A DNA stretch of 64,000 bases from a virus: positions 1 through 64,000 of IMG/VR virus record IMGVR_UViG_3300032315_001715; one strand, 5' to 3'. Positions 1 through 28,783 of the stretch are shown here, one piece after another. Under the pieces are notes generated by a model, which was given only the letters and a program-made list of their open reading frames with translations, made no database searches and was not told the DNA's origin. Position 1 is the first letter of the stretch. The number at the start of each line of letters is the position of its first letter. The position numbers were made by a program, and so were the translations under genes.

Positions 1-606
1 ATCACCGGACCAACGGGACTTGGTGCCACGGGACCAACCGGAGCAGCATCAACGATCACCGGGCCACTTGGGTTGACCGGACCAACGGGACTTGGTGCCA
101 CGGGACCAACCGGAGCAGCATCAACGATCACCGGGCCACTTGGGTTGACCGGACCAACCGGATCAATCGGACCAAGAGGACTTACCGGATATACCGGGTC
201 AACCGGATCAATTGGCCCAACCGGTCCTAGAAACGGTCCAACCGGATCTCAGGGTCCAACCGGACCGGCCGGCATACCCGGTGTTACCGCGTATAATTTG
301 TACGTTAACTATGATGGCGGTGGTATCATATCGTCCGTTACTGGATTACCATCAGGGTGGTCAGCTTCCCTGGGACCATCGTCTGTTACCATAACACACA
401 ATGTTATTGGTCTACCGCAAAGCTTTATAGCATATGGACAAACCACCGTTGGAGGAACGATATGGACCAGCCGTGGACCAAATGCCATCATGAATTTGAT
501 ATACGACACTTCAATATCAAACCAGTTTACCCTTAATGGTATCACCGCTAATAACGTTGGTACCGTGTACGGCGGATCGGCAAGAATGTCGGTATTCTTC
601 GTGTAA
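1..606 (+). CDS. Collagen-like virion protein, 5' end outside window
   Basis: The frame is open from the left edge, so the gene starts before this window. About the first 90 visible residues are Gly-X-Y collagen triplets rich in G-P-T and G-L-T, as in trimeric phage fibres and adhesins. The last ~110 residues are a non-collagen globular end that probably folds as a C-terminal head. It is followed 12 bp later by the tail-fibre gene at 619, with no terminator between, so the two are probably co-transcribed. A role as a virion surface fibre is inferred from the composition and the neighbour. Confidence 0.85.
4..159 (+). repeat. 72-bp tandem repeat in collagen-like gene
   Basis: Two almost identical 72-bp units (24 codons) lie end to end, and the first may continue left of the window. 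Each unit encodes collagen triplets interrupted by an A-A-S-T-I segment. The period is a whole number of codons, so copy-number change would keep the reading frame. Confidence 0.9.
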
Positions 607-618
607 TAGGAGATCTAA

Positions 619-2814
619 GTGTCTGATCGAGTTCCACTAACCCTGTTTACCCATGTAGGGGCGATAACGCCCCATGCTTCGTGGAACGATCCCCTTAATC
701 CGTCTGATCCATGGAATGGTTATCCATATCAATGGTCAGTAACCGTCGAGGTTCAGAGCCAGTCTCACAGTGATCCATCCACCGTTAGACCATTTACCTA
801 CAACGGGCTTGACGTGGTAATTGGTGATTGGTTGATATTCACATCTGGTGCAATGGCACTGGAAATCATCAGCATTACCACCCAAACTGATTCCAGCATG
901 ACGCTGATTGTTGAGGATGTCGGTCTCAGCAATTTGCTAAACAACCCTGCGCAAACCGGACAAGGTATTGGACCAACCAGCGGTCATGATATTTACGATT
1001 GCTTGATCATCAATCTAAATTCGTCAGGGGTGCCAATCTTTGCACCATTGGCAGATTATTCGGTGCCAATCAATCTTGTTGCTGATATCACCAATAGATT
1101 TCAATTTCGCAACTATGTGCAGGATTACATCCCGGTTTCACAGCCTGCACACGGATTCCAAATTGGTGACATAATCTGGTTAGACACCACCGGAAATTAT
1201 CATCCTGCCATATCGTCAGACGTTAACTCCCAGCGTCGGGTTGGTGAGGTTACCAGCATTGATCAGCCAAGCGTTGGTGACTTTACCTATCGCCCGCTTG
1301 GAAGATATGTTAAAAATCTACCAACGTTGCCTGGATTGCCCGGACAAATACTCTACGTTAGTGATGCCGTTCCGGGATCACTGACTGCTATTCCGCCCAG
1401 TGGGACCGCGGCCATACCTGTTTACATACAAATCACCAACGATTCGGCGATCATGTTTGGCGGTGGTAGCAGCGGCGGTAACATCGCCATCATTGGCAAC
1501 AGCATTCTTGCTACCAATGACAACGGTAACATCGATCTGGTACCACAAGGTAATGGCACCGTTACCGTAGCCGGGCTTGGCAGTGGCCGGATCGTTCTAG
1601 CAGGTGCTGGTAATTCCTTGATCACCAGCGGATTTTATGGTTACGATCTTGACAACGCAACACTAAATGTTGGAAATATCGCCATTGGTCAAAGCTCCAT
1701 CAGCACAACGACTGATGGAGCTCCTCTGATTCTCAACGCAAACAATGCCAATGTTGTGATCAACACCACGGCTGATCTAACCGGTAATCGCATCGTTAAT
1801 CTACAGGATCCAATCGAAGACCAAGATGCTGCTACCAAGCACTATGTTGATGCCATCGCACAGGGTCTCAGCATCAAGGAAGCGGTTAAATTATCGACCA
1901 CCACTGCGCTTGATGCAACATTCACTCCGTTGGTCGCATACGGCAGCCTAACATCGAATGTCTATGAACGCCTGGAAATTGACACCATACAACCCGGTGC
2001 CAATGATCGAATATTGGTTAAAAACCAATCAGATGAGCTTGAGAACGGTATCTACAAGGTCGTGCAGATCGGTGGTCCAAGCCAACCGTGGATACTGAGC
2101 AGGACCACCGATTTCAACGGACAGGGAGTTGCTGGACAGGTATCCGCCGGCGACTTTGTGTTTGTAACGGAAGGATACCAAAACGGCGGTACCGGCTGGG
2201 TACAGACCACTCCCAATCCCATTGACATCAATGTATCTCCGATCGTTTGGACCCAGTTTAGCACTGCAGGTGTTATACAAGCTGGATTTGGTTTAACCAA
2301 GACTGGCACCATACTGGACGTCAACGTAGCGCCGATCATCAATACCAGCACTGGTCTAAACACCTCGATGGGACCACTTGGTTACAAGATCATCGAGCTA
2401 AACATCGACCCAACCGCACCACTTGAAGTATATGCCGGGGCATTACGGGTTAAGACCACCATTGCTGGCACCGGACTGAGCTACAACCTGAGTGTCGGTA
2501 ATATATCAATCAACGCCGATCAACCAACGATCACAGGCCTAGGCAATGTTATTTCGGGTACTTGGTCCGCAGGAGTCATTGCCACACAATATGGCGGCAC
2601 TGGCAATGCCATCATAGGCCTACCAGCACAGTCATTGGTCGTCAATGACAACGGAATTGGAACCAAATGGGAATATCGCAGCAAGCTAACCGAAAGCGAT
2701 TTAGCACCATATTATCCTTCCCCAGCAGATGGAGATCGATGGTTCAATACCGACACAGGTATCATGTTTACCAGGATTACCGACGTCAACGGCGGACACT
2801 GGGTCGAGCTTTAA
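619..2814 (+). CDS. Long tail fibre protein (T4-like)
   Basis: 731 aa, GTG start with AGGAGA 5 bp upstream. The middle (about residues 390-415) carries NRIVNLQDP followed by DAATKHYVD, a motif recurring in T4-like fibre and baseplate-associated proteins. Near residue 660 there is QYGGTGNA, typical of fibre shaft repeats. The N-terminal ~250 residues are beta-rich and could be the attachment domain. The C-terminal ~45 residues (DLAPYYPSPADGDRWFN) resemble a tip or 'display' module. Receptor-binding or fibre role is from motif knowledge; no receptor can be inferred. Confidence 0.85.
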   Translation: MSDRVPLTLFTHVGAITPHASWNDPLNPSDPWNGYPYQWSVTVEVQSQSHSDPSTVRPFTYNGLDVVIGDWLIFTSGAMALEIISITTQTDSSMTLIVEDVGLSNLLNNPAQTGQGIGPTSGHDIYDCLIINLNSSGVPIFAPLADYSVPINLVADITNRFQFRNYVQDYIPVSQPAHGFQIGDIIWLDTTGNYHPAISSDVNSQRRVGEVTSIDQPSVGDFTYRPLGRYVKNLPTLPGLPGQILYVSDAVPGSLTAIPPSGTAAIPVYIQITNDSAIMFGGGSSGGNIAIIGNSILATNDNGNIDLVPQGNGTVTVAGLGSGRIVLAGAGNSLITSGFYGYDLDNATLNVGNIAIGQSSISTTTDGAPLILNANNANVVINTTADLTGNRIVNLQDPIEDQDAATKHYVDAIAQGLSIKEAVKLSTTTALDATFTPLVAYGSLTSNVYERLEIDTIQPGANDRILVKNQSDELENGIYKVVQIGGPSQPWILSRTTDFNGQGVAGQVSAGDFVFVTEGYQNGGTGWVQTTPNPIDINVSPIVWTQFSTAGVIQAGFGLTKTGTILDVNVAPIINTSTGLNTSMGPLGYKIIELNIDPTAPLEVYAGALRVKTTIAGTGLSYNLSVGNISINADQPTITGLGNVISGTWSAGVIATQYGGTGNAIIGLPAQSLVVNDNGIGTKWEYRSKLTESDLAPYYPSPADGDRWFNTDTGIMFTRITDVNGGHWVEL

Positions 2815-3046: not shown

Positions 3047-3231
3047 CGTACGATATCCTGTGAATGCCCGCATGCATGGCATTTCCAAACCTCGTCCAAT
3101 GTTAGCTCGTCGTTGGTGATTCGAGGTTCTGGGCCAGAAAGCGCTCGTTTAAGCCAATCAGGGCGCGTGGGATTGATTCCAATCCCACGCCCCATTTCGA
3201 TCTTGCATCGCGGACAGATCGGTGGTTTCAC
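3043..3231 (-). CDS. Small zinc-ribbon protein
   Basis: 62 aa. Two Cys pairs (CPRC at residues 6-9 and CHAC at 51-54) form an apparent four-cysteine zinc ribbon separated by a linker with a charged D-E-L-T-L-D-E helix. The start overlaps the stop of the upstream glycosyltransferase gene by 4 bp (ATGA), indicating translational coupling. Similar phage zinc ribbons often act as nucleic-acid or RNA-polymerase adaptors, but nothing here fixes the function. Confidence 0.75.
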   Translation of the reverse strand: MKPPICPRCKIEMGRGIGINPTRPDWLKRALSGPEPRITNDELTLDEVWKCHACGHSQDIVR

Positions 3232-3941
3232 AGATGTGGAGCTAGCTGAGTAGCGTCTCCCTGGAATTTATAATACCCCGTATGGTCAAGCTTGATGCTG
3301 AGATCGGCCCAGATCTTACCACCGTTTTCCCTCCAGAGCTTGCAGAAATAGTAGTCCTCGCTGAGGTATTCCTTGGTAACCGGATCGATCAAGGTATCAA
3401 ACAACGCATACTTGTAGGGATCATACTTGGGATCCAATCCAATCGCATCAGCATAGTGCAGATCTGGACGGCGCTGTATTAGGGTTTCAATGGCGTGCCG
3501 CTTGATCAGCATGAATCCTGTTCCAAGATTTGCTACCTCAACCAGATTTCCTTCCTTTTGGGAATTAGGTATCCGGTTTACCACATATTGGATTGGCAGA
3601 GCCTTCTTTGGATACAACCCGCCGGCAACATCCTTGTCTGCAACGATAAGCTTGAGTATCTCTTCCGGTTCAAATCCAATGTCAGCATCAACAAACATGA
3701 GATGCGTGCTCTTTGGTTCAAACGCTAGGAACTTGGCAACGAGGCTATTACGTCCTCGAGGTATTAGGCTTTCGTTGACCATGGTATCAACCGTGAAGTT
3801 CAATCCAAGGCGAGTTGCCGTTGCCATGAATTTCAACATGCTGATGAAGAAGGCCTCGTTGACCATGCCGCCGTAACACGGTATGCAAAAATGAAGCCGT
3901 GTGGTACGCATAAAATCTAGTTGTTGTTGGGTGATTTGCAT
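3228..3941 (-). CDS. Glycosyltransferase, GT-A fold
   Basis: 237 aa. The start is placed at MQITQQQL because GAGG lies 7 bp upstream; an in-frame ATG 12 bp earlier has no ribosome site. LHFCIPCYGGMVNEAF is a typical GT-A first strand, RGRNSLVAKFL follows, and MFVDADIGF contains the D-x-D metal/nucleotide-sugar motif. DAIGLDP and LSEDYYFCKLW (the ED catalytic region) complete the pattern. It probably transfers a sugar to a nucleotide, phage protein or surface glycan. First gene of the operon ending in bL33. Confidence 0.8.
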   Translation of the reverse strand: MQITQQQLDFMRTTRLHFCIPCYGGMVNEAFFISMLKFMATATRLGLNFTVDTMVNESLIPRGRNSLVAKFLAFEPKSTHLMFVDADIGFEPEEILKLIVADKDVAGGLYPKKALPIQYVVNRIPNSQKEGNLVEVANLGTGFMLIKRHAIETLIQRRPDLHYADAIGLDPKYDPYKYALFDTLIDPVTKEYLSEDYYFCKLWRENGGKIWADLSIKLDHTGYYKFQGDATQLAPHL

Positions 3942-4020
3942 GGTTAACCTCACATTGGGGATTTGTGAGTATGCCGTACGATGGCGGTTGAGATCAAATC
4001 AATAAAATCAACAACGAGTA

Positions 4021-4614
4021 TTATCTAGGCACAAGGACACCGCGATAATTCATGGCCTTTACGGCAGTTTCCCAGTCAGGAAACTGCTGCCTGAACCTAG
4101 CTGATATGCACCAACGATCCTCATCGGAACAATAGATCGCATGCGGTACATCGACCCTAACCATGGTTAGGGCCATTCCTATCTCCTTGCGTTCAATTTC
4201 TTCGAGATCTTTTACGGGCCAAGTTAGATACGGGGTTTTAGCCATGGTCCATTTGATCTCATGCTCGCCCTCGGGTTTCTTGTACCATAACATCGTGCTG
4301 CCTCGTCCATTGATAACGATGTTAAGCGCTGCGGTGGCAAATTTTGCCGGATCCTTGGTCGATACATCGACATGCGCGTCAATGTTTCGAAATCTAGACG
4401 GCCGCCAAAACAACATAACACTACCGAGATCTAGCCCGATCGATTTGACTGAATCCAGCCATGTTTGGCTGAAAATTTTCGACGGATCTGAATATTGCCA
4501 GATCATGTTCCGACCGTTTTTGTCAACAACCGGCCACTCAAAATTTTCATTAATGGCATGGCTGGTATCAACATCCAAGTTGTACCAACAATGATTTGGA
4601 TTAAAGTGGGTCAT
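4021..4614 (-). CDS. 2OG-Fe(II) oxygenase-like protein, paralogue 1
   Basis: 197 aa. A jelly-roll (double-stranded beta-helix) iron site is suggested by A-H-V-D-V (H-x-D, residues ~79-81) and a distal VPHAIYC with RWCISARF, the expected second His and the 2OG-binding Arg. It is one of three paralogues flanking lpxC. AGG sits 7 bp before the ATG, and an ATAAATA late-promoter core lies at 4650-4656. The fold resembles the aspartyl/asparaginyl beta-hydroxylase group, which includes lipid A hydroxylase LpxO; the substrate here is unknown. Confidence 0.7.
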   Translation of the reverse strand: MTHFNPNHCWYNLDVDTSHAINENFEWPVVDKNGRNMIWQYSDPSKIFSQTWLDSVKSIGLDLGSVMLFWRPSRFRNIDAHVDVSTKDPAKFATAALNIVINGRGSTMLWYKKPEGEHEIKWTMAKTPYLTWPVKDLEEIERKEIGMALTMVRVDVPHAIYCSDEDRWCISARFRQQFPDWETAVKAMNYRGVLVPR

Positions 4615-4649
4615 ATGATTACCTACTGTTCGTTATCATGTGCATGTAA

Positions 4650-4656
4650 TATTTAT
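4650..4656 (-). promoter_or_regulatory. T4-like late promoter core
   Basis: The minus strand reads CATAAATATTA, 36 bp upstream of the oxygenase-like gene and overlapping the lpxC stop codon. It matches the T4 late promoter consensus and has no -35 box. Confidence 0.5.
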
Positions 4657-5552
4657 GTTGGGTAATCGTCGTGATTAGCCCATTCAAATTTCCAAGATTC
4701 TGGATCTCTCATCAAGGTTCGAATCAATTCTTGATTGAGGTTATGGCCGCTGCGATAGCCACGAAACCGTCCTGCTATGCGATATCCGGCCAGTGATAGA
4801 TCACCAATAGCATCAACTAGCTTGTGCCGAACTGGTTCGTTATACCAACGCAGGCCGTCGTGGTTAATGACGTTGTTTTCATCAAAGACCAGGGTGTTTT
4901 CCAAGCTAGCACCTTGCGCTAGTCCTTTCGACTTTATATGATCTAAGTCTTTGAAAAACCCAAAGGTTCTAGCCCTAGATAGATCATTTTTAAACACCTC
5001 CGCGTTTAAGACCGTTGACATTGATTGGCTAGCGATCATCGGATGTGGATAACCCATCTCATACTCGAGGAACAGATCCTGGGAACCGTCGTTGGGCTCA
5101 AGGATGCACCATGCGCCGCCGAGATTGCATTTAACCCTCTTGGTAACACGTATCAGCTTCTTTTTATACGGAGCTTGCATTTCAAGCGGACCAGTTTCAT
5201 TAATAAGCTCAATCCACCCATTGGTGCTGCCGTCCATGATGGGAACCTCGTTTCCCCAAATCTTTATCACAGCATTATCAACTCCATATCCAACCAATGC
5301 AGCTAATATGTGCTCAACCGTGTCGATTGATCGGTCGTCAACTTTGAGAACGGTCCTAAGGTCGCCGCAGTGTGCATTTTCTATGGAAGCTCTAACGACG
5401 GCTGCACATTCCCATTCACTCATAGAGTGAAAAACAAATCCCTGATTAGGATCCCCAGAGAGGATATGTATCTCAGATATCTCGCCAGAGTGAAGACCAA
5501 TACCGCGAAAGCACGCGGGCCTACCTATTGTCGTTTGATAATCTGAGAGCAA
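4653..5552 (-). CDS. lpxC: UDP-3-O-acyl-GlcNAc deacetylase LpxC
   Basis: 299 aa, close to the bacterial length (~305). LpxC removes the acetyl group from UDP-3-O-acyl-GlcNAc, the committed step of lipid A synthesis, in the cytoplasm. All signature elements are visible: GIGLHSG, SIDTVEHILAAL (zinc His ~81), EVPIMDGS, SRARTFGF, GASLENTLVF, VRHKLVDAIGDL (zinc His and Asp) and SGHNLN (catalytic His). The catalytic set is intact, so the enzyme should be active. The start is a TTG; AGGA lies 11 bp upstream and no in-frame ATG fits. It sits between oxygenase-like paralogues. Confidence 0.95.
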   Translation of the reverse strand: MLSDYQTTIGRPACFRGIGLHSGEISEIHILSGDPNQGFVFHSMSEWECAAVVRASIENAHCGDLRTVLKVDDRSIDTVEHILAALVGYGVDNAVIKIWGNEVPIMDGSTNGWIELINETGPLEMQAPYKKKLIRVTKRVKCNLGGAWCILEPNDGSQDLFLEYEMGYPHPMIASQSMSTVLNAEVFKNDLSRARTFGFFKDLDHIKSKGLAQGASLENTLVFDENNVINHDGLRWYNEPVRHKLVDAIGDLSLAGYRIAGRFRGYRSGHNLNQELIRTLMRDPESWKFEWANHDDYPT

Positions 5553-5625
5553 TTTACAGACATTCCTAATGATTTGGCCATATCGGTCATGCTAGATATG
5601 ATCCATGTGGATTAAACTATGGAAA

Positions 5626-6222
5626 TTATCTTCCCCAATCAGTGTAGCTTACGTTTTTGAAGAAGCCAACCGCGTCCTCCCAGGTTTTTAGGATACCGTG
5701 GCGAACTCGTAGGCTTACGCACCATCGAGCGAGTTGCCCACATCGTATCGCATGGGGAATATTGGTTCGTACCAACGTGAATGTGGGACCGACATGATAG
5801 CTGTGAAGCTCGGCTAACTGCTCGACCGGGAACATTGCCGCCGGAATACCATCAGCAACATACTCAAGCCGGTTGGTTGCGATTTTCTGCCAGTACCAAA
5901 CCATTGAACTGTTTCCGCCGCCAATGGTAAAATTCAAAGCACAGGTTACCGGTCCTTGATCGTTTGAACGAGTTACATCTATATGGGCATGCGTCGGTTG
6001 GTATCCAGGCGGTTTGTAAAATATCACGGCTGTTGCAACATCAATACCAATGGCTTTGGCATTGTTATACCATGTTTGGTCCAATATACTCGATGCATTG
6101 CCAAAATATTCGATCTGGCTTGATTCTAGATTTTTGATTTTTGGAAAATCAAAGTCAGACCTAAGAACGTTGATGCACGGCAAGGCCGGAAGAGGTAGAT
6201 AAAAGCTTGATTCAGCACCCAC
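5626..6222 (-). CDS. 2OG-Fe(II) oxygenase-like protein, paralogue 2
   Basis: 198 aa. The GTG at 6222 is chosen because GAGGA lies 7-8 bp upstream and because the N-terminus then aligns in length with the other two paralogues; a longer open frame has no ribosome site. THAHIDVT gives the H-x-D and IPHAIRCG...RWCVSLRVR the distal His and Arg. It overlaps the stop of paralogue 3 by 11 bp, so the two are translationally coupled and precede lpxC in transcription order. Confidence 0.7.
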   Translation of the reverse strand: MGAESSFYLPLPALPCINVLRSDFDFPKIKNLESSQIEYFGNASSILDQTWYNNAKAIGIDVATAVIFYKPPGYQPTHAHIDVTRSNDQGPVTCALNFTIGGGNSSMVWYWQKIATNRLEYVADGIPAAMFPVEQLAELHSYHVGPTFTLVRTNIPHAIRCGQLARWCVSLRVRHGILKTWEDAVGFFKNVSYTDWGR

Positions 6223-6808
6223 TGCCCAGTCCTCGATCGTTAACCAGATAGTCCACCGCATGATCCCAGAGTTGATATCGTCCACCAAACCGCATGCTTA
6301 CGCCCCATCTGCTCGAGTTGCCCACCAATACCGTGTGCGGCATGTTGGTTCTCACCAATGTAGGTTGGGTGCCGATGTTGCAACGGCTAATCTCATGCAG
6401 GTCGGCGATTTCAAAGGCCAAGTTGTGCGTGTTACCCGGAGCAATGTTAACAGGCCTATCCGCAATTTCCGCGGCGCCGGGCGAATCATACCATACCATT
6501 TCGGTAGAGCCGTTGTCGTATGCCCAATTAATCGCACAGGTGGTAACGTATCGTTTGGCATTAACGTCAATGTGTGCCCAGCCGTGATCCGATCCGGCTG
6601 CTCTCCAAAATAATATCACCGATGTGATGTTTGATTGCATGCTTGTCCAAAATTCAAGCCAATCGTTTGACATGATATCAGCCGGATTAGAATAGAAGAA
6701 TTCTCGTCTCTTGATATCTGGATCCAATGTTGGCCAAACGAAATCCGATCGCAATGCGGTCGAGGAATCCAAGGATAGCCGATACCACGGCTTGATCTGT
6801 TCTATCAT
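6212..6808 (-). CDS. 2OG-Fe(II) oxygenase-like protein, paralogue 3
   Basis: 198 aa. GWAHIDVN (H-x-D) and MPHTVLVG...RWGVSMRF (His, Arg) repeat the pattern of the other two. The start MIEQIKPWYRL is chosen by alignment; no Shine-Dalgarno is seen. An ATAAATA motif at 6817-6823 is only 8 bp upstream, so a transcript from it would be nearly leaderless. An ATG 60 bp earlier is the alternative. Confidence 0.65.
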   Translation of the reverse strand: MIEQIKPWYRLSLDSSTALRSDFVWPTLDPDIKRREFFYSNPADIMSNDWLEFWTSMQSNITSVILFWRAAGSDHGWAHIDVNAKRYVTTCAINWAYDNGSTEMVWYDSPGAAEIADRPVNIAPGNTHNLAFEIADLHEISRCNIGTQPTLVRTNMPHTVLVGNSSRWGVSMRFGGRYQLWDHAVDYLVNDRGLGSGC

Positions 6809-6816
6809 ATTGACGA

Positions 6817-6823
6817 TATTTAT
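6817..6823 (-). promoter_or_regulatory. Possible T4-like late promoter core
   Basis: The minus strand reads GCATAAATATCG just before the first oxygenase-like gene. It matches the other late-promoter cores but is unusually close to the start codon. Confidence 0.35.
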
Positions 6824-6906
6824 GCGAAAAAAGGTGATACGTTGCCGTACCACCCTTTCCTGGACCATATCAATGGGCGAGACAGTAACCCCGCCCTCCG
6901 TGGTTC

Positions 6907-8208
6907 TCAGATCCTAGCAATTTTAGAGTCACGCCAACCGTTGGCATAACCCTCGCGATAGATACCTTCATCATCACAAGCCGGCGGGGGCTCGTCGTTA
7001 TAAGGCTGATTATTCACAACATTAACCTCGGCCTTGTGGTATCCGACCTCTTCCCAGTCAACGTAGTAGTTGTCGGAATAGCCTGCCTCGTATCCTAGGT
7101 TAAAATCGGAGCTTTCGCCCAGGGGAGTGGTATCGTCGTAAGAGCCCGCAGCGTCACTGTCCTTCTCTGCTTGGATCTGGCCGGCATCGTAACCACGATC
7201 GTAGGCATCCTCCGGGCTTTCGACCGGCTTGCTTGGCACCGAGGCATTGCCATTGCGCACGCCGTAAAAGCCCTTTCGATAAGCCTCAAGATACCGATCA
7301 GCATCCGCACCGGTAAATCGAGCATCCGTACCATTAAACTGACGCCATGCGCCTGCATCACTGCGACCCTGGTCGTAACCAGCAAGGGCCGGGCTAGGCG
7401 TGTTGGTTGCCATCGGCCGGACCTTGGCCGCAGGAGCTGCCGGTGCAACATTGTTCACCTGGGCGGAATACACCGGAGCGGTGAAGTAGTCCCGGCTTTC
7501 ACGATCGTCGCCCTCGTATTCGCCCACGATCTCATAGCGAGCAGCACGACCCTTGGCGTTGTTGTAGTCGCTTGGGATGCTGACCACGTCGGCCGGATCG
7601 ATCTTCACGATCACCACGCGACCCGATCCACCGTGATAGTGCGGCAGATAGCTGAGGCTGCAAAAGTGCAGACCGTAGGAGCAGGTCTGATCCTTGTTGT
7701 CATCGACCTGGTTGCGCGGCATCTCCAGCACCTTGCCAACGCTGTTGTCCATCTTGCCGGTATAGAAGTCTCGGTAGTCACTGTTGACCTTCTTGTAGGC
7801 TAGGAAGTGACCGTCCTCGGTGATGGGGAGCTTGGTGGCCTCGAGGAAGCCATACAGCTCGTCCACCGCACGCTTGCTGGGATTGCGCATGAGGTTGGCC
7901 AGGAAGTTCAGCATGGGCTGGGCATCAAAGCCCTCGCGAACCATCTGCAGGATGCGGTTGACCACCGATCCCTTGACCTCCATGTCACCGTAGAACACCT
8001 GATCGCCATCAACGCGGACCGCGCCCTGGACGAACTTGATCAAGGTGTTCTTGACGTTGATCAACTGCTCAACCAGCACATGATCCTTGGCCTTGAGGGC
8101 CTCCCGGATACCAGCGTAGTTGGCATGATCACCATTGATTGTATGGGTCACACCATCCATCATCACCGTGATGAACGTAGGACCAACGATAGAAGCCGTA
8201 ATGGCCAT
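6907..8208 (-). CDS. rIIB: RIIB-like protein with acidic repeat tail
   Basis: 433 aa. Residues ~95-245 carry the RIIB core as known from T4-like phages: LPITEDGHFLAYKKV, DFYTGKMDNSVG, CSYGLHFCS and VSIPSDYNNAKGRAARYEIVGE. In T4, RIIA and RIIB together affect lysis inhibition and exclusion. The C-terminal ~160 residues are extra: an acidic tail with at least five loose Y-x-x-G-[YFR]-x-x-G units (GYDQGRSDAG, AYDRGYDAG, GYEAGYSD, YREGYANG). Start has AGGAGA 10 bp upstream. Own promoter TTGACA-16-TATACT at 8257-8284 overlaps the rIIA stop. Confidence 0.92.
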   Translation of the reverse strand: MAITASIVGPTFITVMMDGVTHTINGDHANYAGIREALKAKDHVLVEQLINVKNTLIKFVQGAVRVDGDQVFYGDMEVKGSVVNRILQMVREGFDAQPMLNFLANLMRNPSKRAVDELYGFLEATKLPITEDGHFLAYKKVNSDYRDFYTGKMDNSVGKVLEMPRNQVDDNKDQTCSYGLHFCSLSYLPHYHGGSGRVVIVKIDPADVVSIPSDYNNAKGRAARYEIVGEYEGDDRESRDYFTAPVYSAQVNNVAPAAPAAKVRPMATNTPSPALAGYDQGRSDAGAWRQFNGTDARFTGADADRYLEAYRKGFYGVRNGNASVPSKPVESPEDAYDRGYDAGQIQAEKDSDAAGSYDDTTPLGESSDFNLGYEAGYSDNYYVDWEEVGYHKAEVNVVNNQPYNDEPPPACDDEGIYREGYANGWRDSKIARI

Positions 8209-8256: not shown

Positions 8257-8284
8257 AGTATAGCACACCTTAGTGATGTGTCAA
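8257..8284 (-). promoter_or_regulatory. Sigma70-type promoter of rIIB
   Basis: TTGACA, 16-bp spacer, TATACT on the minus strand, of the same type as the promoters of the right-hand gene array. It overlaps the last codon of rIIA. Confidence 0.8.
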
Positions 8285-10452
8285 GCGGAGATCACTTCTT
8301 TGATCGCCGTTTCAAGCTCCAGTGCAGCCAGTCGATCGCACTGGTTGATGTAGTCCTGCACCTTGCGGGTCAGTGCCGGAGCATCAAATCGGCTGCCGTA
8401 GCCGTAATGGCTGCGATCAAGCACGATGTCCAGCATTGGATAGGCTGCCGTCACCTCGCCGTAGAGATCCTTGGCATTCACCGATGGCAACACCGTTTGC
8501 ACCGTGTTACCAAAGATCTTTGCCAGCTCGATCAGCTGTTGATCCTTGACGGCCTTGTCATTGGCCGCGGAAAGCTGTCGCATTGCCACTGCAAATCTAC
8601 CCAACGGGCCATTCGATCGATCCAGCCGCCAGTTATTGGTCCACAGTCCACGATCACGAGCCGAGCTAGCAACTTCATTGAAGTGTGCGCTGTCAGCCAC
8701 CGTTTGCATCACCGACGGCTTCAACCGCTTGGTTACCTCGTCTCGAACCACGCTCCAGACGTCCCTCCAATCTGCACTGTCCTCAACCTTCTTTTTGAAT
8801 GCACCGCGCGGCGCATAGATCGTATCGGTTTCCTTGAGAATGCCCAGGGACTTGGCCAAGGCAACCGTGCGTTCGAGCTTGTTGCCATGACCTAGACCGC
8901 CATCCGGACCTCGAACGTCCCAGTGATCTAGCAGCACATAGATACCGCCGTCCTCGAGGGTAACGTCCACCGGCTTCCATGCCTTGGTGTTGGACCCCAC
9001 TCCTCGATAGGACATCATGCTGATCTTGGTGCGTGCCGCGGAAGGCCGCTTGGGCAATGCGCTGGCCATCTCAAAGGACGGATTACCCAGGATCTTTACG
9101 ACGTCGTCCTGGGTCTTCTTAGCAGTGGTTAGATCAAAGAAATAAATCTCTGCCGAGGCCGCGCTGGTCTCGATCAGGTAATTCACCCGGCTAAGGGCAC
9201 CCTTGTCGAGATCATTAAAGATGAATCGCGCACGATCCGAGCAGCGAATGGTGAGATCGGCATGGCAGGTCTGCTGCCGAACACGCTTGTAGTGTGCGTT
9301 ATTGGCATAGACATCGGGAGATTTTCCTGCCGTGGCATCCCAGATATCCTGAGTTTTCAACGTGACATGCGCTTCCTTGATGAGCTGGTTCTTCCACTTG
9401 AGCCCATGGTTGCCAAATGCCTTTTCAAATTCCCAGCGGAACCCGCTGTCATTACCAAAGATGTTTGAAAAGATCTTGCGTGCTTCCCATTCGGTTGCGG
9501 CACCAGCCATTTGCTTTTCAAAGACCTGACCAAGCTCGTTCAGCACGACATCCAATCGTGCGACGATGCTCTTCTGCGTGCGTTCGTCATATCCCAGGGC
9601 TTCGCGGGAAGCGGCGATCTCAAGATCGCCGATGCCAAAATCCACAACCAGCGGCGTTTCGAGGATCGCGGTCTGTGCCTTGCTGAGGCCATTGATCGAA
9701 TTGCGATCCAACGGATACGCCACCCGCCCCATCAAAGCCACCGGACGATTCTGCTCCCGGGAATAATAGTCGTCATTCTTGCGGAGTATCCGCCAGCCAT
9801 TGCCTTCAAATGCAATCTTAGGTTCGGAAATTTCCAGCTTGTTGACACCGGTGATCTCCGGACGAACGGAAAACCAACGGAATACCATGGCGGCTTTTTC
9901 GGCAAAGCGACGCATGTCGTCCTGCTTGACCGGCATCTTCACCGTGACGCCATTGGGTTCCGAGGTAGGCTTTTCTCCCAGCAACGCCACGCTGGGCATG
10001 CCAGACTCGTTCTTGTACATGGAATACTGGCGTTCAATGCCATTCTTGATGGCGGTGACATCAAACGCATCCACGTAGCTGAACGGGCTCTTGCAGCCCA
10101 ATCCCAGCTGACCGATCAACTCGTTGCTGTGGATCTTGGTGCTGGCACCATAGGTGGTAAACGTGCTGATGACCTCCTGATGATTCATGCCGATGCCAAA
10201 GTCTCGCACGTGGAAGAAGGGCTCAAACATCGTGGGTAGATGCACTTGGATGGGCACGCCGGCCTTGCCGACCTCAACATGGCTGTCCACCGCGTTGCAG
10301 CTCAGTTCGCGGATGATGCTTTGGATCTTGTCCGAGTAGAGGCCGTCCGATAGGATCTTGGCCATCTTGGCATTGAAGATGATACCATAGGCACCATCTG
10401 ATGCAAGTCCATCTCGCTCAACGACGGTCTCATTCGTAGAATTGATCTTCAC
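8281..10452 (-). CDS. rIIA: RIIA-like protein, GHKL ATPase fold
   Basis: 723 aa, close to the T4 RIIA length. N-terminal motifs fit a GHKL (Hsp90/histidine-kinase-like) ATP site: IIRELSCNAVDSH (N box), VRDFGIGM (G1), TTYGASTK and IGQLGLGCKSPF (G2). The GTG at 10452 is chosen because AAGGAA lies 7 bp upstream and the promoter TTGACC-16-TATGTA (10487-10514) would start transcription just before it; longer in-frame starts lie inside or upstream of this promoter. Partner of rIIB immediately downstream. Confidence 0.9.
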   Translation of the reverse strand: MKINSTNETVVERDGLASDGAYGIIFNAKMAKILSDGLYSDKIQSIIRELSCNAVDSHVEVGKAGVPIQVHLPTMFEPFFHVRDFGIGMNHQEVISTFTTYGASTKIHSNELIGQLGLGCKSPFSYVDAFDVTAIKNGIERQYSMYKNESGMPSVALLGEKPTSEPNGVTVKMPVKQDDMRRFAEKAAMVFRWFSVRPEITGVNKLEISEPKIAFEGNGWRILRKNDDYYSREQNRPVALMGRVAYPLDRNSINGLSKAQTAILETPLVVDFGIGDLEIAASREALGYDERTQKSIVARLDVVLNELGQVFEKQMAGAATEWEARKIFSNIFGNDSGFRWEFEKAFGNHGLKWKNQLIKEAHVTLKTQDIWDATAGKSPDVYANNAHYKRVRQQTCHADLTIRCSDRARFIFNDLDKGALSRVNYLIETSAASAEIYFFDLTTAKKTQDDVVKILGNPSFEMASALPKRPSAARTKISMMSYRGVGSNTKAWKPVDVTLEDGGIYVLLDHWDVRGPDGGLGHGNKLERTVALAKSLGILKETDTIYAPRGAFKKKVEDSADWRDVWSVVRDEVTKRLKPSVMQTVADSAHFNEVASSARDRGLWTNNWRLDRSNGPLGRFAVAMRQLSAANDKAVKDQQLIELAKIFGNTVQTVLPSVNAKDLYGEVTAAYPMLDIVLDRSHYGYGSRFDAPALTRKVQDYINQCDRLAALELETAIKEVISA

Positions 10453-10486
10453 CTGTGGTTCCTTGTTGTGCTGTTCATGTAGCGCA

Positions 10487-10514
10487 TACATAGCATGCTT
10501 TGCGCAATGGTCAA
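10487..10514 (-). promoter_or_regulatory. Sigma70-type promoter of rIIA
   Basis: TTGACC, 16-bp spacer, TATGTA on the minus strand. It supports the GTG start of rIIA. A weaker divergent plus-strand signal (TTGCGC-17-TGTATG at 10500-10528) could serve the gene at 10557. Confidence 0.7.
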
Positions 10515-10556
10515 TGAAATATTGTATGGAATTGCGAAATCCACGCATAATTTTGC

Positions 10557-11288
10557 ATGAAAATCGCACTTTGCTTGTATGGACATTTTCGTTGCTTCGA
10601 TGCCTGCTGGCCCGAGCTTCGTGATAACCTGCTGATCCCAAATCAAATCAAGGATGTTTTTGTCCACAGCTGGACCGACAGCATGGGATATTTCCAGCAT
10701 CCGGAGTCAAGCATTGGACACAAATTCCATCCAGGATATGATCTTGCCAGCGAGCAACCATCTGCCAGTTACATCACGTCCGTATTGGATAGGTTGCAGC
10801 CCATCGAACATCAATTCCAGGACTATCGGGCATATGATGCCAAGTTCTCCAATATGGTTGATGATCTACACGAATGGCATCATCCCAGCATCCATCATCG
10901 CCCAAAAGGCACGCTGGGACAGGTGTTTGGACGATGCTGTGCGATCAAGATGAAGCATGATCACGAGCAACGGCACGGATTCACCTATGATCTCGTGGTG
11001 GTAACACGCTGGGATATTGGATATTCCCGACCAATAGACCTGCGCTCAATGGGCATCGATGCCGTGAACATGGACGGTATGTACGGTCCTGATGTAATAA
11101 GTGATGCGTGGGCTTGTGGCCCAAGCAATCTTGTTGATCTCTGGGGTCAACAATTCAGCTGCATCAACGGATTGATAGAACGCGGAACCATGAATCTAGG
11201 ACCACATGATTGGCTCAAGGCCCACTTTGATCTAAGGTCAATAGCATGGGAAAATCGACCAGACGTTGGCATCTGGATACGGCGATAA
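10557..11288 (+). CDS. Glycosyltransferase-like protein
   Basis: 243 aa, lone plus-strand gene. The N-terminus KIALCLYGHFRCFDACWPEL and VFVHSWTDS resemble a family of sugar-transferase-like proteins in large viruses that begin 'alCl.G..R' and have 'D.fihtW'. LVVVTRWDIGYSRP supplies an R-x-D motif in place of D-x-D. HDWLKAHF near the end may be the catalytic-base region. No clear ribosome site precedes the ATG. Function is assigned from motif resemblance only. Confidence 0.65.
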   Translation: MKIALCLYGHFRCFDACWPELRDNLLIPNQIKDVFVHSWTDSMGYFQHPESSIGHKFHPGYDLASEQPSASYITSVLDRLQPIEHQFQDYRAYDAKFSNMVDDLHEWHHPSIHHRPKGTLGQVFGRCCAIKMKHDHEQRHGFTYDLVVVTRWDIGYSRPIDLRSMGIDAVNMDGMYGPDVISDAWACGPSNLVDLWGQQFSCINGLIERGTMNLGPHDWLKAHFDLRSIAWENRPDVGIWIRR

Positions 11289-27769: not shown

Positions 27770-28783
27770 ATGGCCATACGATCAGTCATTACCAAGTTTG
27801 AACCAATAAACCCCAACACCCACCCCGGCTTTGCCGGAGAGCTGTGGGTTGACAACATCACCGGCACGCTGCATCTAGGCGACGGCGCCACGCCCGGCGG
27901 CCAAGCCGCGTTGACCTACAATTTCAACGGTGGAGGCATGGCATTTCCCCTGCTGGAGGTTGACCTGCACAACGGCGGCGTGCAAACCGGCCAGGTACTT
28001 CAGCTGGGAACCGCCGGCTACCAGGCCATCATCACCGGCCCCACGCCCACGGGCAACGACAGCGCTGAACGCTTGATAATACAGGGACAGCGCGGTGCCG
28101 GCTCGGGCGAGGGTGGCGACGTTTATTTCTGGGGTGGTGATGCCGAATACAACGGCGGCGACATCAAGATCTACGCCGGCAACGCCGACAACGTCACCGT
28201 GGGTGACGGCGGATACGTCAACATCAGCGGCGGGGACGGTGCCACCATTGCCGGGGATGTTGCCATCAGTGGCGGCGGCTCCAACGCGGGAACGGGCGGA
28301 GATGCCAGCCTTGCCGCGGGAGCCGGTGTCATTCCCGGCAACGTGTGGATCTACAACAACGGCTATTCATGGAAGTTCGACGCTGATGGCACGGTAACGA
28401 CTCCCGGCAACGTGGCATTTCCCGGCAACGTGCTGATCACACCATCACAGGTGCGTTCGGGACAGGGCGCGGGTGCCACCGGGGGCTACAGCTTCACCGG
28501 CAACGAAGGTGGCAACGACACGGGCTTGTTCAGCCCTGCTGACGGCAACGTCAGCATCTATTCCAACACCAACCATGCGATGAATCTCAAGCCGGTATCG
28601 GTGGCCAACACCGCTGACTGGACCATGTTTGGCACGCTACAGCTGATCCCGCAGAGCAGCCAGCCCACGGGTCGTCCCGGCATGCTGGCGGTGTGCGATG
28701 GCACCGCCTGGAACCCAGGCGGCGACGGCAACGTGCATTTGCTTTGCTATACCACAACATGGAACATCGTCGGCGGCACATAA
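27770..28783 (+). CDS. Second fibre/adhesin protein
   Basis: 337 aa. The first 45 residues duplicate the anchor of the 25472 gene (AIRSVITKFEPINPNTHPGF; ELWVDNITGTLHLGDGATPGG). The middle is Gly/Asn-rich (GGDVYFWGGDAEYNGGD), then a W-K-F-D-A-D-G repeat and a distinct tip. AAGGAGG 10 bp upstream. Confidence 0.85.
   Translation: MAIRSVITKFEPINPNTHPGFAGELWVDNITGTLHLGDGATPGGQAALTYNFNGGGMAFPLLEVDLHNGGVQTGQVLQLGTAGYQAIITGPTPTGNDSAERLIIQGQRGAGSGEGGDVYFWGGDAEYNGGDIKIYAGNADNVTVGDGGYVNISGGDGATIAGDVAISGGGSNAGTGGDASLAAGAGVIPGNVWIYNNGYSWKFDADGTVTTPGNVAFPGNVLITPSQVRSGQGAGATGGYSFTGNEGGNDTGLFSPADGNVSIYSNTNHAMNLKPVSVANTADWTMFGTLQLIPQSSQPTGRPGMLAVCDGTAWNPGGDGNVHLLCYTTTWNIVGGT

Follow-up and report, generated by a model that had tools for sequence, protein, structure and literature searches.

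A predicted catalytically intact LpxC encoded by a T4-like jumbo phage, with neighbouring oxygenases of a separate family

The lpxC gene found among three oxygenase genes in the DNA analysed here (the window, which is the first 64 kb of the 452,799-base virus record IMGVR_UViG_3300032315_001715) encodes what, judged by its sequence, is a complete and catalytically intact LpxC. About nine groups of phages carry a stand-alone LpxC (gene context read by eye), and we lean slightly towards the view that the phage enzyme sustains or raises lipid A synthesis of the host during infection. The flanking oxygenases are a separate mobile accessory family, the target of which is more likely something other than lipid A. 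The features of the region are as follows.

1–2814, plus strand: collagen-like (GPTG) and tail-fibre-like genes, a convergent landmark outside the run
3228–3953, minus strand: GT-A glycosyltransferase-like gene with a DAD motif (phrog_1574, 6e-42, function unknown; weak Anp1 match, 0.015)
4021–4614, minus strand: putative 2OG-Fe(II) oxygenase paralog 1, 197 aa, with H81, D83, H158 and R167
4653–5552, minus strand: lpxC, UDP-3-O-acyl-GlcNAc deacetylase, 299 aa, TTG start
5626–6288, minus strand: putative 2OG-Fe(II) oxygenase paralog 2 (a GTG near 6225 is the likelier start, judged by eye)
6212–6868, minus strand: putative 2OG-Fe(II) oxygenase paralog 3, from alignment to the other paralogs
6907–8208, minus strand: rIIB (phrog_609, 7e-83), directly 5′ of the oxygenases after a 38-bp gap
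8257–8284, minus strand: candidate sigma70-like promoter, 11/12 with a TG extended −10 (consensus scan only)
8281–10641, minus strand: rIIA (phrog_612, 4e-117; tblastn matches to rIIA of Ruegeria and Rhodobacter phages)

The predicted LpxC matches PF03331 with an E value of 1.2e-82 and LpxC structures in the PDB at 1e-61, and scores 256 bits against the NCBIfam equivalog model TIGR00325, for which the trusted cut-off is 187. Residues E78, H79, T191, F192, H238, K239, D242, D246 and H265 (Salmonella/E. coli numbering) are all kept, including the Zn ligands H79, H238 and D242 and the catalytic residues E78, D246 and H265. The original prediction of a catalytically complete enzyme is thus confirmed at the level of score and residues, and that the protein would be enzymatically active is well supported by its sequence. 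An AGGA lies approximately 10 nt 5′ of the TTG start. The protein resembles cellular LpxC in being a full-length homologue above the equivalog cut-off with its catalytic residues complete, whereas its gene differs in being phage-borne and away from the mur/fts locus, and in encoding no enteric C-terminal FtsH degron (LAXXXXXAVLA in E. coli; PMC12444477). Since alphaproteobacterial LpxC lacks the FtsH degron in any case, its native turnover being unsettled (PMC12444477), the missing degron is not telling. The best cellular homologue is 42 % identical and a phage homologue 46 %.

The record is that of a T4-like jumbo myophage: the stretches read at 160–205 kb encode a terminase, tail proteins and a capsid protein of the gp23 type. 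The nearest isolated relatives are Sinorhizobium phage Phosso (469 kb), as judged by capsid protein (77 % identity) and terminase (51 %), and Agrobacterium phage Atu_ph07, as judged by terminase (49 %). Because of these relatives, the host is likely to be an alphaproteobacterium. Sequence searches of the Phosso record found neither LpxC nor a related oxygenase, and tblastn at 1e-5 gave an LpxC match in neither Phosso nor Atu_ph07; lpxC is therefore dispensable in the phage group to which the window belongs. When IMG/VR was searched for exact 30-mers, no second assembly of the lpxC region turned up, and the region is thus represented by one assembly. G+C content steps within the window from approximately 0.47–0.55 at 1–26000 to approximately 0.60 at 28000–64000.

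An alignment-based scan of IMG/VR for LpxC returned 21 loci, where a single-protein scan had found nothing. The phage groups carrying a stand-alone LpxC are the window with L015/L016; L017; L018; L019–L027; L028 with L029; L030; L031; L034; and the isolated Vibrio phage K566 (also K567). The chromosomal neighbours ftsZ, secA, murC, ftsA and bamD lie beside none of the counted phage loci, none of the phage proteins ends in the enteric AVLA tail, and all those checked keep E78, H79, H238, K239, D242, D246 and H265, with single changes elsewhere (position 191 is W in K566, and position 19 is R in L030). Where it can be measured, selection on phage LpxC is purifying, dN/dS being 0.13–0.33 for pairs of LpxCs from phages other than that of the window. 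In a 39-row maximum-likelihood tree, in which some rows are long and from which K566 was left out, the window LpxC is sister to that of L015 (support 100/98), and the placing of all phage LpxCs in one clade is rejected (p-AU 0.025); lpxC has therefore been acquired by phages more than once. The lpxC of K566 is divergent with its catalytic residues intact, and is called hypothetical in its record. It lies directly 3′ of a gene annotated pagP (L012:9436–10702), a name that comes from the record annotation and finds no Pfam or PDB sequence support; the product of that gene begins like a signal peptide and ends in Phe. Another phage contig with lpxC also carries CsgG/CsgF curli-secretion-like genes, identified by eye (L017:2281–9423). 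The best tblastn matches, in Acinetobacter phage MD-2021a and a Salmonella SARB27 contig, proved to be host chromosome with ftsZ adjoining and were not counted. Three records filed as phage carry host mur-fts-lpxC DNA (CAKLQH020000013.1, CAKLQF020000016.1 and AFYI01000001.1, the first and third of which were read), and such records are a trap for surveys of phage genes.

From rIIA downwards, successive genes of the run are separated by gaps of less than 75 bp or overlap (the ORFs of oxygenase paralogs 2 and 3, as listed, by 77 bp), and the glycosyltransferase-like gene is the next same-strand gene 3′ of paralog 1. The candidate promoter at 8257–8284, upstream of rIIB, is the sole strong promoter-like site in a scan for which about eight chance sites were expected at the 9/12 threshold, and it may possibly drive the whole run as far as lpxC. 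Because of the short gaps and overlaps and this 11/12 site, lpxC probably belongs to a transcript led by rIIB. A glycosyltransferase-like DUF7796 gene (10557–11288, plus strand) overlaps the 5′ end of rIIA, as listed, on the opposite strand.

The placing of lpxC among three paralogous oxygenase-like genes was correctly predicted, with the amendment that paralog 3 runs to 6868 and not to 6808; with lpxC placed between paralogs 1 and 2, two of the paralogs are upstream of it and one is downstream. Paralogs 2 and 3 are 30–33 % identical to paralog 1, and two further clear paralogs occur in the record at 401–404 kb. Across 24 aligned members of the family from phage loci, H81, D83, N98, M108, W110, P157, H158 and R167 (paralog 1 numbering) are kept, and with them an invariant HxD...H...R signature, as in 2OG-Fe(II) enzymes, that comprises the metal triad and the 2OG-binding arginine. 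An AlphaFold2 model of one paralog, paralog 1, has a pLDDT of 94 and forms a double-stranded beta-helix. Its best neighbour by VIA-align is a nucleoside-antibiotic hydroxylase (Z 10.1, rmsd 2.9 over 128 residues), followed by a proline 3-hydroxylase (Z 9.3, rmsd 3.5 over 141 residues) and then by AlkB, NO66 and YcfD at Z 8–9, while the top matches in a Foldseek viral library are uncharacterized proteins of uncultured phages. On the strength of this confident model, the flanking genes belong, as had been proposed, to the 2OG-Fe(II) oxygenase superfamily, a placement by predicted fold that fixes the superfamily and not the substrate. The family has no Pfam, PHROG or PDB sequence match, and tblastn of three oxygenases against isolated phages gave zero matches; it is a real, unnamed and uncharacterized phage family within a known superfamily. 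Its relatives sit in variable accessory islands, where the neighbours, their functions read by eye, include desaturases, B12-radical-SAM proteins, N-acetyltransferases and ATP-pyrophosphatase-like genes.

The original prediction had joined LpxC and the oxygenases in one lipid A remodelling module, in which acyl-chain hydroxylation of the kind carried out by LpxO would alter receptor or immunity features of the envelope. The genes do share a strand and are separated by short gaps, the oxygenases have the 2OG fold, in L008, L116, L127 and L117 relatives of theirs have membrane fatty-acid desaturases nearby (read by eye), and elsewhere this phage has a desaturase as well as an LpxO-like gene of the PF05118 type. 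Against a module, the pair does not recur in the records searched: LpxC was found in 0 of 24 records of other phages with the oxygenase family (many of them fragments, two of approximately 250 kb and one of 137 kb), and the oxygenase in 0 of 16 records of other LpxC phages (many also fragments, and including the whole 255-kb K566 and a 194-kb contig). The proposed link of the neighbours to LpxO is not supported either. Compared by hhalign with a profile built from nine fetched LpxO or LpxO-like proteins, the flanking family reached a probability of 0.1 %, no better than the 0.3 % of an unrelated control (the same family against LpxC), whereas the phage's own PF05118 proteins, the positive control, reached 96 % (E 2.8e-9). 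None of the 24 family members matches PF05118. Neither LpxO nor AspH is among the 50 matches listed in the fold search of paralog 1, but Z scores there were middling and near-tied and speak neither for nor against an LpxO fold. The flanking oxygenases have in common with LpxO and the Asp_Arg_Hydrox family (PF05118) that they are non-haem 2OG enzymes with a double-stranded beta-helix, yet they show no sequence or profile relation to them, and lack the HRDPxAGSxRxH motif and the N-terminal hydrophobic segment seen in LpxO proteins. Given 0.1 % for the flanking family against 96 % for the PF05118 proteins, the LpxO analogy belongs elsewhere. The record has three PF05118 (LpxO-type) genes over the cut-off, at 399 kb, 174.6 kb and 167.5 kb, and the analogy fits the one at 399 kb, approximately 60 kb from lpxC if the record is circular, the match of which to the LpxO model NF033391 (2.3e-9) is itself far below cut-off. 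We consider a joint module quite improbable. It also appears rather improbable that the oxygenases modify structural proteins of the phage, for example collagen-like tail fibres, and that lpxC merely happens to lie among them. Collagen-like GPTG fibre genes are less than 4 kb away, proline 3-hydroxylase is among the fold neighbours, and tail-fibre-like genes are found near several oxygenase relatives; on the other hand, Z scores are nearly tied among prolyl, nucleic-acid and ribosomal oxygenases, and a collagen-like tract was found at none of the other loci of the family, for which reason we rejected prolyl hydroxylation of collagen fibres as the family function.

Our working hypothesis, that phage LpxC maintains or increases lipid A production by the host, takes the following form. 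We infer that the phage makes an active LpxC of its own, probably early in infection, which would deacetylate the UDP-3-O-(3-hydroxyacyl)-GlcNAc supplied by host LpxA; the product would pass to host LpxD, and synthesis of lipid A and LPS would go on, or rise, once the phage had shut off host gene expression. The LpxA C-terminal domain, LpxB and a late acyltransferase were all not found in the phage record, leaving LpxC alone among the lipid A enzymes tested; phage LpxC must therefore work within the host pathway, and its solitary occurrence fits host enzymes doing the rest. Supplying this one enzyme might bring the greatest gain to a phage whose infection cycle is long, because LpxC catalyses the committed step and, in E. 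coli, is both controlled and unstable, being subject to proteolysis with a half-life of up to 2 h that falls to 4 min in slow growth (PMC12444477). This argument from a labile enzyme is borrowed from E. coli and extrapolated to a host that is likely to be an alphaproteobacterium.

Two other uses of a phage LpxC can be set against this hypothesis. Superinfection exclusion, whereby more or altered LPS together with phage O-antigen sugar genes would re-coat the cell against rival phages, has been proposed for the LPS clusters of jumbo phages (PMC7824862, PMC13282480), and the present phage encodes RfbH, above its equivalog cut-off (430 versus 423 bits), in a sugar cluster at 190–198 kb. That cluster is approximately 185 kb from lpxC, however, such clusters are known here from the phage of the window and not from the other LpxC phages, and LpxC alone would shift the amount of LPS, not its structure; we regard this explanation as unlikely. 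Alternatively, LpxC might deliberately upset the balance between LPS and phospholipid and so weaken the envelope for lysis. In E. coli too little LPS is lethal and so is too much, excess inner-membrane LPS being toxic (PMC9356133), and lpxC follows the rII lysis-timing genes. The host-type promoter-like site upstream, however, suggests expression early rather than at the time of lysis, and the cell would die too soon. Moreover, in T4 the rII genes delay lysis, and such a role strikes us as highly improbable. Continued or increased lipid A synthesis remains the reading that we prefer. It is tempting to extend it, very tentatively and as something we think possible rather than probable, to a wider proposal: that T4-like and jumbo phages have acquired lpxC repeatedly, as a recurrent gene by which viruses control the committed lipid A step and hence outer-membrane production, and that in some lineages its combination with tailoring functions (the pagP-annotated gene of K566, the LpxO-like PF05118 gene of this phage) would amount to virus-directed remodelling of lipid A.

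Phage lpxC is a phage envelope-metabolism gene and as such of a kind already known. LPS and capsule sugar clusters have been described in jumbo phages and cyanophages, with superinfection exclusion as the suggested role (PMC7824862, PMC13282480). They share with this phage, which has its own RfbH/epimerase/glycosyltransferase cluster, the possession of genes for host-surface glycans, and differ in acting on sugars and O-antigen, where lpxC instead concerns the committed step of lipid A. A search of the open-access literature, with most subscription papers and all preprints outside its scope, found no description of a phage-encoded LpxC and only incidental mention, once in a paper on cellular contamination of viromes. 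The known effects of phages being on LPS sugars and O-antigen, seizure of the committed step in lipid A synthesis, which is also the one under the tightest control, would open a new way for viruses to control the Gram-negative envelope. If true, it would make testable whether phages with long cycles must keep the outer membrane growing, and natural phage variants of LpxC bear on a prime antibiotic target.

Elsewhere in the record, an acyl-carrier-protein-like match (PF00550, 26.6 bits) lies in a 102-aa ORF at 230940–231032, and a phage acyl carrier protein would bear on acyl metabolism. The sugar cluster at 190.2–198.4 kb (L148:204–8403) comprises RfbH, TPP-enzyme subunits, two NDP-sugar epimerase/dehydratases and glycosyltransferases, and is possibly a 3,6-dideoxyhexose route in a phage. 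At 394.5–399.8 kb (L013:1500–5062, 6005–6784), two B12-type radical SAM genes adjoin the most LpxO-like of the PF05118 genes. An accessory island between tail genes at 167.4–176.0 kb (L147:7419–15967), holding two PF05118 hydroxylases, a desaturase (PF00487), a Rieske oxygenase, two ATP-pyrophosphatase-like genes and N-acetyltransferases, looks like a small biosynthetic cluster, and counterparts of its genes adjoin the same oxygenase family in other phages.
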